Source: a virus. Taken from it: a DNA stretch of 34,499 nt. Below the pieces are notes generated by a model. The model was given only the letters and a program-made list of their open reading frames with translations, was not told the origin of the DNA and did not search any database. This document shows positions 19,667 to 25,411 of the stretch, one piece after another. Made by a program: the position numbers and the translations under genes. The stretch is taken from IMG/VR virus record IMGVR_UViG_3300022934_000079, positions 1 to 34,499 of that record, one strand, 5' to 3'. Position 1 is the stretch's first letter, and each line of letters begins with the position of its first letter.

Positions 19667-19882
19667 TCAGCTGTGCGTGTATCCATCCGCCTCGATCGCC
19701 AGCCATAGGCCGGGCACCTGAACCACCACCGCATCATCCATGCCAACGGTCGATTTCACCTCCCGGCGAAAATCACGATAACAACCGGTCAAACCGGGGC
19801 GGCTGCCGTTGTTCTCGTGCCACCGCTGCCACACTGCATAAACGGCCTTGCGCTGGGCCTTGGTCAATACGGGCCGGGTCAT
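19667..19882 (-). CDS. Hypothetical island protein (71 aa)
   Basis: A 71-aa protein: basic N-terminus (MTRPVLTKAQRKAVYAVWQR), then GCYRDFRREVKSTVGMDDAVVVQVPGLWLAIEADG. Its GC-rich codons match the island. Start overlaps the stop of the next upstream gene (ATGA at 19879-19882). It is the last gene before the terminator. I do not recognise a family, but similar small proteins with YRDFRREV segments appear in phage accessory regions. Confidence 0.65.
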   Translation of the reverse strand: MTRPVLTKAQRKAVYAVWQRWHENNGSRPGLTGCYRDFRREVKSTVGMDDAVVVQVPGLWLAIEADGYTHS

Positions 19883-20040
19883 GATACCGGCCCCATTGCG
19901 TCGAGCATCTCCCGCAGCTCTGAGGGCGTCAGGCCTAGATCCGCTGCGGTTGTGCTCAGTGGTTCGCCCAGATCGATCCGGCGCTGCGCCTCGATCAATT
20001 CTGCGGTCATGCTGCGAGCTGCTTTCACTACATCAAACAT
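19879..20040 (-). CDS. Small HTH-like protein (53 aa)
   Basis: A 53-aa protein from ATG 20038-20040, preceded by a G-rich SD (GGGGGG). The C-terminal half (LSTTAADLGLTPSELREMLD) reads as a compact helix-turn-helix, and the N-terminal half as one helix (VVKAARSMTAELIEAQRRIDLG). A longer frame to a TTG at 20061 overlaps the preceding gene and is less likely. A DNA-binding role is inferred from the HTH-like pattern only. Confidence 0.6.
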   Translation of the reverse strand: MFDVVKAARSMTAELIEAQRRIDLGEPLSTTAADLGLTPSELREMLDAMGPVS

Positions 20041-20050
20041 CACGGCCCCC

Positions 20051-20380
20051 CTACGCTGCAATTGAGCCAGCAGCCCGGGCGGCTGCGGCGTATTGCGAGA
20101 TGGTTTTGTCGGCAGTAAAGAACCGGTCCACCTCGAGCCCGATCCCGAGCGGCCCCTTCACCTCGGCCAGCTCGTGAACCGAGACGCTGCCCATTTCAGG
20201 CGAGCCCATGCCGAGGTCGCACAAGCCATACGCCACGCCGTGGGGGTCCATGCTAGTGAGCAGCCACGTAGCGGCCCCGCACGGGTTAAAGATCTTTACC
20301 ACCGGGCGGTGGTCCAAATAATATTCCTGATCATTCTCGAGCAATTTCTGCTTTTGTTTTGCGGTAATTTTCAAAGCCAT
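20051..20380 (-). CDS. DUF2958-like protein
   Basis: A 109-aa protein from ATG 20378-20380, whose SD (GGAGG) is 7 nt upstream. The pattern VVKIFNPCGAATWLLTSMDP, then GYGLCDLG-like, GSVSVHELAEVKGPLGIGLEVDRFF fits DUF2958, a family of unknown function common on plasmids, ICEs and phages (F.P.....W..t..DP...ys.G....e.G..sl.EL....gp.gl..ErD..F). Together with the DUF932-like gene it gives the island a mobilome character. A hammerhead ribozyme separates it from the DUF932-like gene. Family call is from memory. Confidence 0.72.
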   Translation of the reverse strand: MALKITAKQKQKLLENDQEYYLDHRPVVKIFNPCGAATWLLTSMDPHGVAYGLCDLGMGSPEMGSVSVHELAEVKGPLGIGLEVDRFFTADKTISQYAAAARAAGSIAA

Positions 20381-20420
20381 TTTTGGGCCTCCTAAGTTAG
20401 TTGATTTGCTGATGGTCAAA

Positions 20421-20488
20421 CCTGTCTCATCAGGTGCCGGGGGTCAGTCCGGTCACGACCGGGGCGCAGGCCCCGGTTTCGACTTAGG
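20421..20488 (-). ncRNA. Type II hammerhead ribozyme C
   Basis: Minus-strand order: stem II 5' arm CCT-AA-GTC (20481-20488), core GAAA (20477-20480), stem III CCGGGGC/GCCCCGG with a 4-nt loop (20459-20476), U (20458) and cleavage-site C (20457), stem I hairpin GTG-A-CCGG ... CCGG-CAC (20434-20456) with an A bulge, core CTGATGA then stem II 3' arm GAC-AGG (20421-20433). All invariant bases are present. Cleavage expected between 20457 and 20456. Stem II begins over the DUF932-like stop codon (20484-20486); the DUF2958-like gene begins about 40 nt downstream. Confidence 0.92.
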
Positions 20489-21494
20489 CGGCGAACCGTT
20501 GCCACGCCTCGCTGCTCACAATGCGGGTCACGGCGGTCTCACGATCGGCCAGCACAGCGGCCACATTATCGGCCCCGGTGTTGCGCACCTTGAACTGATC
20601 AGTGGCATGGCTACTCCACTGGGTCAGGGCGCTGTATACGCTCCACACGGTCATGCCTCTTGCGGCGGCCTCCCGGTCGAGCTGTTCCATCAGGGCCTTG
20701 GTGTGCTTGGGGCTGTTTCCGGTGTCCTTCAGCACCTGCTCAGCTTCCTCCGGTGAGATCTCGGACATGGCCCAACGCTGCCACACTCGGCACCGCTCTT
20801 GGAACATCTCAGCCTGCGCCCGGATAAACCCGCCCAGATGCTCGGGGGTGAAGGCCACAGTGTGGCGGAAGGCGTCCGAGGTCATAACATCCCCCATCAT
20901 GCCGTTGAGGCAGATCAGATCCTCGGCCCCGGCCCACACCTTGATCGAGCCCCCGCCGTGATAATTTGACCACCCGGCTTTGAAGTTTAGCATGGTTGGC
21001 TTTCCCGATAATTGTTTGAGCTCGTACGCCATGCCGCTGAAGGTCAGATCCACCCGGGAGAAACGGCCTTCAAACGAGGTAACCTGAGCGCTGCGCACAC
21101 CATCATCAAAAGCGGTAGTGGGCAACCCGGCCCCGAGGCCCTCGACAAATGCCGCATGGATGTCCCGGTTTTGGGCAATGGCAAACCGCTGCCCGACCAC
21201 AAACAACGGCTGGCCGGTGTCCTCCCGCAGCAATAGGCTGCCGATGTTTTTGGGCAGGCGCTGCAGCGTCCATGTGCTGCCCTCCACACCGGCCCGGCGC
21301 ACGGCCAGCTCGGTCGGCATAGGCTCCCGGTCCTCGAGGTATCCGAGGCCCTTCTGGATCACGTTAAAATCCAGCTTGGTGGACAAGGCCAGCGGGTCGA
21401 TCGTTTGGCGCTCGGCAGCGGCCTTGGCGCTGATCGTTTGGGCTAAGCTGATAACCTCGGCAGGCAGGCGGTCAATTGAATTCAAAGTGTTCAT
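20484..21494 (-). CDS. DUF932 family phage/plasmid-like protein
   Basis: A 336-aa protein with a long helical N-terminus, a beta-rich centre (QPLFVVGQRFAIAQNRDI, VTSFEGRFSRVDLTFSG, PTMLNFKAGWSNYHGGGS, LICLNGMMGDVMTSDAF) and a helical C-terminus. The LNGM and GWSN-HGGGS landmarks fit DUF932, a family of unknown function common on plasmids and phages. It is flanked on both sides by hammerhead ribozymes B and C. Its leader carries GTTAGTTGATT (as AATCAACTAAC) before an SD (GGAG). Family call from memory; biochemical role unknown. Confidence 0.72.
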   Translation of the reverse strand: MNTLNSIDRLPAEVISLAQTISAKAAAERQTIDPLALSTKLDFNVIQKGLGYLEDREPMPTELAVRRAGVEGSTWTLQRLPKNIGSLLLREDTGQPLFVVGQRFAIAQNRDIHAAFVEGLGAGLPTTAFDDGVRSAQVTSFEGRFSRVDLTFSGMAYELKQLSGKPTMLNFKAGWSNYHGGGSIKVWAGAEDLICLNGMMGDVMTSDAFRHTVAFTPEHLGGFIRAQAEMFQERCRVWQRWAMSEISPEEAEQVLKDTGNSPKHTKALMEQLDREAAARGMTVWSVYSALTQWSSHATDQFKVRNTGADNVAAVLADRETAVTRIVSSEAWQRFAA

Positions 21495-21519
21495 TTTGGT
21501 ATTCTCCAGTTAGTTGATT

Positions 21520-21594
21520 GGCTGACATTCTCATCAGGCCCGGGCGGTCATTCCCGGTGCGACCGGGGCGTTGTGCCCCGGTTTCGATTTAGCC
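21520..21594 (-). ncRNA. Type II hammerhead ribozyme B
   Basis: Minus strand: stem II 5' arm GGCT-AAA-TC (21586-21594), core GAAA (21582-21585), stem III CCGGGGC/GCCCCGG with loop ACAAC (21563-21581), U (21562), cleavage-site C (21561), stem I GC-A-CCGGG ... CCCGG-GC (21538-21560) with an A bulge, CTGATGA, then stem II 3' arm GA-ATGTC-AGCC (21520-21530). Outer stem II pairs GGCT with AGCC. Cleavage expected between 21561 and 21560. The stop TAA of the coiled-coil gene (21589-21591) lies inside stem II. Confidence 0.92.
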
Positions 21595-22452
21595 AAACAC
21601 CCGAGCAAAAAATCCCCGATTTCTACACTCGGCCAATTTTTCGGCCATGCGCTCGAGCTGCGCCTCGGCAGCCAATAGATCCAACTCCGCCTGCTTACGT
21701 TTCTCGAACTCATTATGCGCCTCTTTCGACCACCGGTTAGCCCAGCTCGGGTCATTCAGGCGATCATGTGCAGCCTGCTCGGCGATCCGGGCGTTAGTCA
21801 CCTCGGTCTCGGCCTGATCAAGTTTTTGCTGCAGAGCATTGGTGGCCGCATTGGCCAGCTCGAGGGTCTCCCGCAGCTCGTTGATCTGGGCCTCGTGATC
21901 ATCCACAATTTTCGTGGCCGTCTCGAGCGCACCCTTGGTGCCGTGTAATTTGTCGGATAATTCCCGCACAGATTTTTTGGCCCCCTCGTAAGCTTCCCGG
22001 GCTGATTTGGTGCGCTGCTTTTCGGCTGCGATTTCACCCTGCAACCGCTCGACATTAGCGGCGGCTCTTTCCTGCAGGCCGGTGTAACTTTGCCGGGCCA
22101 TTTCTGCCTTATCCCGCTCGGCCCGATAGGCATCCCGGGCCTTTTGGCTGCGCTTCCGCTCAATTTTTAACTCCCCCTGCATTGCCATGTTTTGCATCTC
22201 CAAGCGGTGGCTGTCTTTATCCAGACCGGGCCGGTCAGTGGTATACGGTGCGTTAGCGGCAATGATCTTGCGAACAGTGGGCCAGCTCACACCAAACTGC
22301 TCAGATAGTTTTTGGATCGAAACCCCGGCAGCTCGCAGCTCGGCCATCTCGGCCCCGCAGGCCCAAGCCCGGCTAGTTTTCTTGCTCACCCACACCGGGG
22401 TGGTTTTGGTGGCTTTCAATGCGGCGGTGCGGTCAGTCAGTTGAATATTCAT
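21589..22452 (-). CDS. HTH plus long coiled-coil protein (KfrA-like layout)
   Basis: A 287-aa protein. Residues about 32-65 read as a helix-turn-helix (MAELRAAGVSIQKLSEQFGVSWPTVRKII) similar to resolvase or transposase DNA-binding helices. From about 75 to 270 the protein is almost wholly coiled coil with abundant Ala, Glu, Gln and Arg. HTH plus long coiled coil is the layout of plasmid KfrA-type proteins, which bind DNA and assist partition or regulation; sequence kinship is not claimed. Leader AACTGACTGGAG precedes the ATG at 22452. Ribozymes A and B flank it. Confidence 0.7.
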   Translation of the reverse strand: MNIQLTDRTAALKATKTTPVWVSKKTSRAWACGAEMAELRAAGVSIQKLSEQFGVSWPTVRKIIAANAPYTTDRPGLDKDSHRLEMQNMAMQGELKIERKRSQKARDAYRAERDKAEMARQSYTGLQERAAANVERLQGEIAAEKQRTKSAREAYEGAKKSVRELSDKLHGTKGALETATKIVDDHEAQINELRETLELANAATNALQQKLDQAETEVTNARIAEQAAHDRLNDPSWANRWSKEAHNEFEKRKQAELDLLAAEAQLERMAEKLAECRNRGFFARVFG

Positions 22453-22478
22453 TGGTCAGTCTCCAGTCAGTTGGGGCT

Positions 22479-22533
22479 TTCTCATCAGTGGCCCTTGCCC
22501 AAGGTGGCCAGACGCCCCGGGGGGCGTTTCGAA
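22479..22533 (-). ncRNA. Type II hammerhead ribozyme A
   Basis: Minus strand: stem II 5' arm TTC (22531-22533), core GAAA (22527-22530), stem III CGCCCC/GGGGCG with a 2-nt loop (22513-22526), U (22512), cleavage-site C (22511), stem I TGGC-CA-CCTT-GGGC-AAGG-GCCA (22489-22510) with a CA bulge, CTGATGA, stem II 3' arm GAA (22479-22481). Stem II is shorter than in B and C. Cleavage expected between 22511 and 22510. Stem II lies 1 nt after the stop codon of the 82-aa gene (22535-22537). Confidence 0.88.
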
Positions 22534-22534
22534 T

Positions 22535-22783
22535 TTAAAAGGATCCGGGCCCGTTATAGGTGCCCAGCTCGGCCATCTTGCTCCGGTAGGCTCGATCCCC
22601 ACCAAAGAATTCTATGCTCGGGATGTCGTGCCCCCGGTTGATCAGCTCGGCCCTATACTGTGCGGCAAAGGTCTCATTCATGTGGCCCTTGGTGTGGCCG
22701 ATACAGGCGGTTGTGGCCAAGGCGTTAGCCATCCATTCGGCCAGATCATTTACGCTGGCATTTTTGATTTGATCCGGGCGCAT
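22535..22783 (-). CDS. Hypothetical island protein (82 aa)
   Basis: An 82-aa protein: helical N-terminal half (QIKNASVNDLAEWMANALATTACIGHT), then FAAQYRAELINRGHDIPSIEFFGG and a Gly/Ser end. Small phage proteins with AAQYRAELINRG-like segments are common, of unknown function. SD GAGG precedes the ATG by a short space, and only 3 nt separate it from the preceding gene. Ribozyme A begins right after its stop. Function unknown. Confidence 0.65.
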   Translation of the reverse strand: MRPDQIKNASVNDLAEWMANALATTACIGHTKGHMNETFAAQYRAELINRGHDIPSIEFFGGDRAYRSKMAELGTYNGPGSF

Positions 22784-22786
22784 CGA

Positions 22787-23002
22787 TCACACCTCCACAT
22801 AAACAATGGTGGAAGGCTTCAGGAAGATCTCCCGGCCAATATCATCCGCAGCGGTACAACAGTAATTTGCCGGGCCGAAACGGTCCTTGCGGTTGTAATG
22901 ATTTCTTATGAATTCCTTTTGCGCCTCGGGTTTGCGGCGGAAGAAATCGCCCTCTTTTATGTGGCGGATTTCTAAAGCTTTGAATTCAGTCTGGTCGGTC
23001 AT
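22787..23002 (-). CDS. Hypothetical island protein (71 aa)
   Basis: A 71-aa protein with a small beta/alpha look: ALEIRHIKEGDFFRRKPEAQKEFIRNHYNRKDR, then YCCTAADDIGREIFLKPSTIVYVEV. The pattern GDFF.RK......F.R..Y.R....Y.....DD.....LK....V.V recalls small phage proteins that may fold as SH3-like barrels; I do not know a role. The leader has the recurring AACTGACTGGAG box and a hairpin (CGGGC/GCCCG, near 23028-23045). Confidence 0.65.
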   Translation of the reverse strand: MTDQTEFKALEIRHIKEGDFFRRKPEAQKEFIRNHYNRKDRFGPANYCCTAADDIGREIFLKPSTIVYVEV

Positions 23003-23172
23003 GGTCGTCTCCAGTCAGTTAAAGTTTTATTCGGGCACACCGCCCGTGCCTCCCCTTAACATACCTGCGGCCACTTAGTAAAGCACCTAATGTGCACCCT
23101 GTTGATGATCAGTTAAATGGCCTTTTTTGGGGAAAGAGGGTGCTGCCTTATCCTACTATGCGAAAACCTAAA

Positions 23173-23879: not shown

Positions 23880-24062
23880 ATGAAAATAAATAAAGATTAT
23901 GCCATTGAACTTGGAAATGCTTTTTTAGATGCCGCTGAAATGGCCAGCGAATCCGATACCCCTGCCGTCATCATTGAGCTAAATGAGCAGACCGTATTAG
24001 CCGTATCAGATCCTGAAGATGGTTTTGATGCAGGGTTACCAACTATATGTTTGGTCACGTAG
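23880..24062 (+). CDS. Small acidic protein between island and integrase (60 aa)
   Basis: A 60-aa acidic protein: helical start (IELGNAFLDAAEMASESD), a beta core (TPAVIIELNEQTVLAVSDP), and an end DGFDAGLPTICLVT. SD (AAAGGGG) precedes the ATG. Upstream lies TTGACG at 23801-23806 as a possible -35, but the -10 is weak. It is the first rightward gene, facing away from the island and followed by a strong terminator. No family recognised. Confidence 0.65.
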   Translation: MKINKDYAIELGNAFLDAAEMASESDTPAVIIELNEQTVLAVSDPEDGFDAGLPTICLVT

Positions 24063-24086
24063 TAATAATTTGACGTGCAAGTAGTT

Positions 24087-24113
24087 AAAACCCGGCTTTT
24101 GTCGGGTTTTTTT
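24087..24113 (+). terminator. Intrinsic terminator after the 60-aa gene
   Basis: AAAACCCGGC-TTTT-GTCGGG followed by seven T. Stem of 6 bp plus A/T pairs, including one G-T wobble. It ends the rightward 60-aa transcript before the integrase. Confidence 0.82.
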
Positions 24114-24148
24114 ATGCCCAACTCCTATAGCACCTTGTCCCTTTAACG

Positions 24149-24176: not shown

Positions 24177-24310
24177 AGGGGAGAAACAATAACACAACTG
24201 AACTATAAATCCCTTATACACCATCTAACTACTATTGCAAGTGCCATCCAGTATTGACTTTAGTTAAGTGTGATATTACCGTTTAGTATGCAACTAGAAC
24301 GGTGACCAAC

Positions 24311-25411
24311 ATGAAACATTATAAATATCTATACACAGAAGAACGTAAGCACGGGATGATATGGGTTATTAATCCACCCCGGTCTGTTCGAGAGGATTTA
24401 GGTGTAGGCTACGAGAAGTACTACACGCTAGTGGACGGACGCAGGCGATCTGAAGAACTGATGCAAGCGGTTGAGGACCACAAGCGCCGTAAGGCTCGTA
24501 CTAAAAAAATGCATATCCCACCCAATACAGTGGATGCATTATGGGCGTGGTATACGCAGCACAAGAGCTACAAGACGCTCACTGACAATTCTAAACGCAC
24601 CTACGCCCAGATATACAAATCAATATCAGGGACGTATCTTAAAGGATCAGACACCCGTGTTGGATTACTCCTTACTCGCACCGTAGACTCCGAAGTCGCA
24701 GACAAGATCCATGCACATATAGAGAAGCACCATAGTGAACACGCTGCAAACTCTGCAGTAAAAGTACTGCGGCGGATGTTTTATGTGGGACGCCGGGGCC
24801 CATTACCAAACACCCGAGCAAATCCATTCCAGCAAATGGGCCTGCGACAACTAATTAGTCGCCGGGTTCGGTGGACTGATGAGGACGTAGAAAAGTTTAT
24901 CACGACTGCAGACGAGATGGGATTCTGGTCAGTCGGCACCCTACTACTCATGTGCTACGACTTATGCCAACGGCCCGGCGATATGAGGCAGTTAACTTGG
25001 TGCAAGTTTAACGATGGCGTATTTAAATTCGTGCAAGAAAAGACCCGCCGTAAGAACCCTCACCCAATTGTATTAGACGCTTCTGAACGTCTGATCTCAC
25101 GATTATCAGAGATCCCTCGAGGTGATGACGACGATACTATTATAACGTACGAAGCTACTGGGCGTCCGTACGATAAGCGGATGTATGCCAAGATTGCGGC
25201 TCGAGTACGGGCCCAAGCTGGACTTAACAAAGAGCTACAAATACGAGATGCTAGGCGCTCTGGTGCCACCTTACTAGCCGAATTTGGTTGCACTGAAGAC
25301 GAGATAGCCTCGGTAACCGGACACACCTCACGAGACATGCTTAGAGTGTACGTGAATCCTACTCAGAAAACAGCCTCCCGGGCTATGCGAAAAAGGTTCT
25401 CGAATGGCTAA
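24311..25411 (+). CDS. int: Tyrosine recombinase (phage integrase)
   Basis: A 366-aa protein from ATG 24311, which has a GGTGA SD; a GTG at 24302 would add 3 residues. N-terminal arm-binding/SAM-like region to about 180 (KTLTDNSKRTYAQIYKSISG). The catalytic half shows the first Arg in LCQRPGDMRQL (near residue 220), then IRDARRSGATLLAEFG (near 310), TGHTSRDM (near 336) and the likely nucleophile Tyr in RVYVNP (near 346). The usual His of the H-x-x-R box reads Arg here. The attP-like tRNA fragment 460 nt downstream fits its job, site-specific integration and excision. Confidence 0.87.
   Translation: MKHYKYLYTEERKHGMIWVINPPRSVREDLGVGYEKYYTLVDGRRRSEELMQAVEDHKRRKARTKKMHIPPNTVDALWAWYTQHKSYKTLTDNSKRTYAQIYKSISGTYLKGSDTRVGLLLTRTVDSEVADKIHAHIEKHHSEHAANSAVKVLRRMFYVGRRGPLPNTRANPFQQMGLRQLISRRVRWTDEDVEKFITTADEMGFWSVGTLLLMCYDLCQRPGDMRQLTWCKFNDGVFKFVQEKTRRKNPHPIVLDASERLISRLSEIPRGDDDDTIITYEATGRPYDKRMYAKIAARVRAQAGLNKELQIRDARRSGATLLAEFGCTEDEIASVTGHTSRDMLRVYVNPTQKTASRAMRKRFSNG

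Follow-up and report, generated by a model that had tools for sequence, protein, structure and literature searches.

What would a phage gain from placing self-cutting RNA between its genes? The question is raised by three type II hammerhead ribozymes, which lie in the gaps of a single gene cluster, and it bears on the biological role of phage hammerheads.

The gene cluster and its hammerheads

The window (the whole 34,499-nucleotide stretch of DNA that was analysed) is an IMG/VR virus record, IMGVR_UViG_3300022934_000079, with genes for terminase, portal, major head protein, DnaB-type helicase, family A DNA polymerase and tyrosine integrase. The terminase shares 74% identity with those of the Roseobacter phages CRP-3 and CRP-212, which places the window among HMO-2011-type phages of roseobacter-like bacteria. 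A megablast search among deposited phages found no close DNA relative, while the protein search led to CRP-3 and CRP-212; a prophage search of genome contigs found no relatives of the terminase. CRP-3 is reported to integrate into the host genome (PMC9038755). In the window, the integrase gene (24302-25411) adjoins the hammerhead unit, which is read in the opposite direction. The unit comprises the following features, given in the order in which they are read:

22787-23002, minus strand: 71-aa gene from the list of open reading frames, the first of the unit; 90% identical in the near relative L004, with no Pfam or PHROG match
22535-22783, minus strand: 82-aa gene, 3 nt past the 71-aa gene, its stop codon directly before HH1
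22471-22534, minus strand: HH1, type II hammerhead (RF02276 40.4 bits, strict finder, pseudoknot, covariation)
22461-22472, minus strand: leader AACTGACTGGAG, lying between HH1 and the following ATG and read from the sequence as a ribosome-binding site
21589-22452, minus strand: 287-aa gene with an HTH N-terminus and a long central stretch interpreted as coiled coil; CRP-3 and CRP-212 have homologues
21516-21589, minus strand: HH2, type II hammerhead (RF02276 35.5 bits, fold z -3.4)
20484-21494, minus strand: 336-aa DUF932 protein (PF06067, E 2.7e-6), 42% identical to that of CRP-3
20416-20484, minus strand: HH3, type II hammerhead (RF02276 29.8 bits, fold z -3.1)
20051-20380, minus strand: 109-aa DUF2958 protein (PF11171, E 8.3e-35), 60% identical to that of CRP-3; first gene of the last predicted mRNA piece
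19667-20061, minus strand: a pair of small genes (about 53-60 aa and 71 aa) that overlap each other at the end of the unit, with homologues in L004
19612-19640, minus strand: hairpin resembling a Rho-independent terminator (GGCCCGG..CCGGGCC TTTTTTT), closing the unit; identified by eye and absent from the scanner list

In the 287-aa gene, the HTH_23 match is weak and under the Pfam cut-off, and the coiled-coil-type matches are likewise weak. Apart from the three hammerhead gaps, the junctions of the unit overlap or abut; thus, all gaps large enough for a ribozyme hold a hammerhead. The scanner found neither terminator-like sites nor sigma-70-type promoters on the minus strand of these three gaps. 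The hammerheads themselves are built as follows, all on the minus strand:

HH1: stem II UUC (22533-22531)/GAA (22481-22479); stem III ACGCCC/GGGCGU; cleavage 3' of C22511; stem I as a hairpin at 22510-22489; core CUGAUGA at 22488-22482; pseudoknot GGGC (22500-22497)/GCCC (22477-22474)
HH2: stem II UC/GA; stem III of 8 bp (ACCGGGGC/GCCCCGGU); cleavage 3' of C21561; stem I as a hairpin at 21560-21538, a single A being bulged; core at 21537-21531; pseudoknot UGAC (21550-21547)/GUCA (21526-21523)
HH3: stem II GUC/GAC; stem III of 8 bp; cleavage 3' of C20457; stem I as a hairpin at 20456-20434, a single A being bulged; core at 20433-20427; pseudoknot GACC (20445-20442)/GGUU (20422-20419), three Watson-Crick pairs and one G-U

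An earlier note, made from the letters of the sequence, had read a full type II hammerhead in each of the three minus-strand gaps and had suggested a search with the Rfam type II model. Two methods agree with this reading. The Rfam model RF02276 (Hammerhead_II) matched all three elements and gave no match in 14 control genomes; its alignments are full-length (model positions 1-66), with stems I and III closed by loops and stem II open, which is the type II order. HH1 (E = 1.1e-8) exceeds the gathering score of 37 bits, whereas HH2 (2.1e-7) and HH3 (6.9e-6) are under it, yet significant for the record. HH1 and HH2 were also listed in a whole-Rfam scan of the window; two further Rfam matches near 24045-24128 are far under threshold and terminator-like. 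The second method, a strict finder that demands an exact core and paired bases in stems I, II and III, returned exactly HH1, HH2 and HH3 from the window, and nothing from 60 Markov-simulated windows (4.1 million strand-bases).

All three elements carry the consensus core (CUGAUGA, GAAA, the closing A-U and the cleavage-site C), tested as C3 U4 G5 A6 N7 G8 A9, G12 A13 A14, A15.1-U16.1 and H17. The core-adjacent pairs of stems I, II and III are present; in HH2 and HH3, the bulged A of stem I comes after 2-3 bp. The cleavage sites proposed earlier (C17|N1.1 at 22511/22510, 21561/21560 and 20457/20456) were exactly reproduced, whereas the description of the stems needs some revision. A stem III length of 6-7 bp holds for HH1 (6 bp), but HH2 and HH3 have 8 bp each when the closing A-U pair is counted; stem II is paired in all three, as had been claimed, but amounts to only 2 bp in HH2. 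The pairing between loop I and the 3' tail had been missed. Perreault et al. 2011 found such a pseudoknot to be general in type II hammerheads (PMC3088659); HH1 and HH2 have it with four pairs each, and HH3 with three pairs and one G-U. At the level of sequence, the three elements are confirmed as type II hammerhead ribozymes, predicted to cut themselves.

Each hammerhead begins 0-1 nt past a stop codon, which bears out the earlier claim of a start close to the stop. The distance from stop codon to GAAA is 3-4 nt, and the elements end 26-43 nt upstream of the next ATG, a distance that keeps the ribosome-binding site free. The leader 12-mer that follows HH1 has further copies at 21504-21515 (AACTAACTGGAG) and, ahead of the first gene, at 23009-23020; a variant with AGGAGG lies 3' of HH3. 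At 23009-23020, 22461-22472 and 21504-21515, this recurrent 12-nt leader of the operon is given as AACTRACTGGAG, and similar leaders of the TAACTTGGAG/TAACTGGAG type stand ahead of genes in CRP-3 and CRP-212. The recurrent leaders of the window, CRP-3 and CRP-212 are a common extended ribosome-binding site, as read from their letters.

Imperfect direct repeats surround the operon: 19529-19569/23164-23204 (41 nt, 80%) and 19643-19666/24126-24149 (24 nt, 88%). Both adjoin terminator-like hairpins, with one copy downstream and the other upstream of the hammerhead operon, and the exact sequence GCTGAGTGGGG occurs only at the two copies of the 41-nt repeat. The repeats are possibly phage promoter, regulator or attachment sites.

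Conservation and rearrangement in related phages

The near relative L004, whose DUF932 protein is 95% identical, keeps all three hammerheads. Thirteen of the 209 ribozyme bases differ and none of the changes breaks a stem. The sole difference in a core is at N7 of HH2, a freely variable position; in stem I, a C-G pair is replaced by A-U, and the remaining differences fall in loops, bulge and tails, those of HH3 being confined to loops. As a background, 24% of third codon positions differ in DUF932, the gene covered by this comparison, and the noncoding leader differs at 17%.

The earlier note described the differing but paired stems of the three copies as covariation within one genome. These copies are paralogues, and the better evidence comes from orthologues. 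In a set of five HH1 homologues, 100 of 100 cells are paired and three pairs are changed on both sides. As aligned, the stem I and stem II changes among the HH1 homologues are compensatory.

The layout that the earlier note proposed to look for is indeed found in related phages, with hammerheads at homologous junctions in L004, CRP-3, CRP-212, L210, L211 and G016. In CRP-3, CRP-212 and L210 the order is DUF932, hammerhead, HTH/coiled-coil, hammerhead, DUF2958; L211 has the CRP-3 order plus a third hammerhead ahead of DUF932. The order in G016 is that of the window (HTH/coiled-coil, hammerhead, DUF932, hammerhead, DUF2958), with a junction read across both contig ends. The DUF932 and HTH/coiled-coil genes swap places and the hammerheads remain at the junctions. 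No type II hammerheads were found in the related phages HMO-2011, CRP-1, CRP-235 and CRP-738; with many related phages lacking one, the function must be dispensable in this group.

It is tempting to speculate that the hammerheads are mainly seams, where cassettes of a gene and its hammerhead are swapped by homologous recombination via the shared core and leader, each insert keeping its own mRNA. The occurrence of both gene orders with a hammerhead at all junctions fits this idea, as does a lineage with the loop CCTTGGGCAAGG, which stands before the HTH/coiled-coil gene in the window and CRP-3, before DUF932 in L211 and before DUF2958 in G016. Moreover, the stem III and stem I halves seem to be mixed between junctions, although this mosaic pattern was judged by eye from few sequences. 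Early phage genes often shuffle without ribozymes, however, and recombination alone would not require intact cores and pseudoknots, which makes exchange somewhat doubtful as the main role. The separate idea that each ribozyme lineage is strictly tied to the gene after it is rejected, because one lineage precedes three different genes.

Placement of hammerheads across viral contigs

A pattern scan of viral contigs yielded at least 120 stretches, which were selected by pattern and whose gene calls are mechanical. Among the matches listed, RF02276 was found at E <= 0.001 in 87 of 114 tested records, with at least two matches in 27 records, at least three in 11 and a maximum of seven. The strict finder gave eight hammerheads in contig G009, mostly at consecutive junctions. 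Gene clusters with about 5-8 type II hammerheads were also seen in L258, L011, L126, L116, L080 and L047, which are stronger serial cases than the window. Successive ribozymes are separated by a median of 422 nt, approximately one small gene.

Placement was assessed for 180 distinct ribozymes among the matches listed, the window and its relatives included. Of these, 141 (about 78%) start at -4 to +6 nt of a stop codon, counted for open frames of at least 40 codons, compared with 6.5% of random positions. A pseudoknot of at least 4 bp is present in 64%, compared with 20% after loops and tails were permuted. The commonest junction is TAG-TC-GAAA (29/165), whose stop codon can lend its last base to stem II.

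Among 132 genes directly downstream of phage hammerheads, in loci chosen for their hammerheads, DUF932 is joint top with four cases, and ArdA and ArdC occur once each. The DUF932-like genes in hammerhead-selected contigs (L010, L047, L090 and L100) all stand directly after a hammerhead (4/4). A link with defence, anti-defence, early or anti-restriction genes is possible, and is best taken as a lead from loci that were themselves chosen for hammerheads.

The closeness to stop codons might also mean that cleavage is regulated. The core would compete with alternative pairings, or a ribosome at the stop codon would block folding, and cutting would depend on upstream translation. In other phages the most frequent spacing from stop codon to GAAA is 2 nt; this spacing, like that in the window, falls within the footprint of a ribosome at termination. 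The predicted folds also include alternatives in which the core is hidden, both in HH2, where CUGAU may pair with GUCAG (21512-21589), and in HH3, where GUCGAAAC may pair with GUUUGAC (20412-20484). The minimum-energy fold of HH2 includes stems III and I (z -3.4), and that of HH3 has a z of -3.1; for isolated HH1 the minimum-energy fold is not a hammerhead (z 0.06). The alternative pairings are not kept in CRP-3 and CRP-212, however, where the tails read GGCCA or GCCCC, and placement at the stop codon may merely save space. Regulation of this kind is unlikely.

Proposed processing of the transcript and comparison with known systems

HH1-HH3 are very probably functional ribozymes that cut, in cis, the polycistronic mRNA of the early/lysogeny region in a temperate HMO-2011-type phage. 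This is the best explanation of the sequence, structure, homology and conserved placement described above, from which we infer that the unit is co-transcribed, that cleavage occurs in the phage and that cutting is of benefit. With three self-cutting RNAs in the gaps of one cluster, each directly past a stop codon, a long mRNA should cut itself into shorter ones, most likely pieces of one to three genes. Several observations speak against this reading: HH2 and HH3 score under the gathering threshold, isolated HH1 has a minimum-energy fold other than the hammerhead, competing pairs involve the cores of HH2 and HH3, and many related phages lack type II hammerheads.

In the proposed mechanism, the bases just past the stop codon would pair with those just past CUGAUGA to form stem II. 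Stems III and I would be closed hairpins, and pseudoknot pairing of loop I with the 3' tail would lock the active fold. Since the type II order places the cleavage site between the two hairpins of stems III and I, both new ends should be hairpins. About 25 nt past its stop codon, the upstream mRNA would finish in a stable stem III hairpin that carries a 2',3'-cyclic phosphate. The downstream mRNA would start with a 5'-OH and the stem I hairpin, roughly 57-76 nt before the start codon and with its ribosome-binding site free. The halves would be joined by only 2-3 bp of stem II; thus, cleavage should be effectively irreversible. Four pieces are predicted: the first with the 71-aa and 82-aa genes, the second with the 287-aa gene (about 950 nt), the third with DUF932 (about 1100 nt), and the fourth with DUF2958 and the two small genes (about 845 nt). 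The outcome would be separate, end-protected mRNAs from one promoter. The most likely benefit would be that the pieces are stable and translated independently of one another, since their new ends should resist 5'-end-dependent and 3'-exonuclease decay. The earlier note expected this cutting, for which sequence, homologues and published precedent speak, but also expected single-gene pieces, whereas two of the blocks hold at least two overlapping or abutting genes.

Paired flanking hammerheads make circles in retrozymes and viroid-like RNAs, and some phage genes also have hammerheads on both sides, as if cleavage and ligation were to yield a circular or spliced RNA of the enclosed gene. Such a product is very improbable here: the flanking ribozymes of the window are unlike in sequence, and spliced or circular products of tandem prophage hammerheads were sought by Perreault et al. 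and none were detected (PMC3088659). That the elements are relics, chance hairpins or ordinary intergenic terminators is scarcely credible, even with two of the three under the Rfam gathering score, given a core retained at 95% identity and in far more divergent phages, the compensatory changes, a chance origin ruled out by the empty simulations, and terminators ruled out by the lack of U-tracts downstream of the hairpins and of scanner matches in the gaps.

Beyond self-cutting of the early mRNA, a wider proposal is possible, if tentative. In many temperate phages, stop-fused type II hammerheads at nearly all non-overlapping junctions (up to eight consecutive ones) may act as ribozyme punctuation. 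Each cistron would become a self-contained cassette, with a 5' end and a 3' end of its own, and fast-evolving early genes (DUF932, DUF2958, ArdA/ArdC-like) could change order or be exchanged while the expression of neighbouring genes stays undisturbed, the cutting possibly being timed by the ribosome as it terminates. The fusion to stop codons, together with runs of 5-8 hammerheads, suggests a systematic device, by which a phage operon would give separate mRNAs without a protein nuclease. Cultured phage-host pairs are at hand, namely CRP-3 and CRP-212 on roseobacter FZCC0040. With ribozymes at the same junctions in some phages and none in close relatives, cutting, mRNA stability and expression are directly comparable. 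The papers searched yielded no RNA data on this phage group.

Clustered phage hammerheads are already known, and the window adds a further, well-supported case that has relatives among cultured marine phages. In the open text of the papers searched, there appears to be no precedent for hammerheads in HMO-2011-type roseophages, cultured ones included, for their conservation at reordered junctions, for runs of 5-8 per phage, or for stop-codon fusion as a rule; the term "stop codon" has no occurrence in the text of Perreault et al. 2011 (PMC3088659).

The view that serial use was undescribed is wrong. Perreault et al. 2011 reported multiple hammerheads around prophage genes and proposed the same mRNA processing, with cutting in vitro for three arrangements and, for the triple of A. 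tumefaciens, also in E. coli (PMC3088659). Their clusters, which include this triple around ardA and those of Azorhizobium caulinodans and Clostridium scindens, resemble the window in having several hammerheads per polycistronic phage transcript, around single genes or short blocks. Many lie near an integrase, as the unit of the window does, and the loop I/tail pseudoknot is common to both. Unlike in those clusters, the three hammerheads of the window are all type II and stop-fused, belong to an HMO-2011-type marine podophage, have homologues at swapped junctions, and accompany DUF932, HTH/coiled-coil and DUF2958 genes instead of ardA.

Compared with RF02276, the core, the permutation, the 2-3 bp stem II, the closed stems I and III and the pseudoknot tail are alike; there is no essential difference, although HH2 and HH3 score under the gathering threshold. 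In the haloviruses HF1 and HF2, a hammerhead of the HHphage variant lies just before an early gene, and the 5' end of a transcript has been mapped close to its cleavage site (PMC3088659). That hammerhead is single and has core variations, whereas the window has three consensus-core copies in series. In phage T7, RNase III cuts the early mRNA at intercistronic hairpins, giving stable pieces with 3' hairpins. The outcome predicted for the window is comparable, but in T7 a host protein does the cutting, whereas in the window the RNA is predicted to cut itself.
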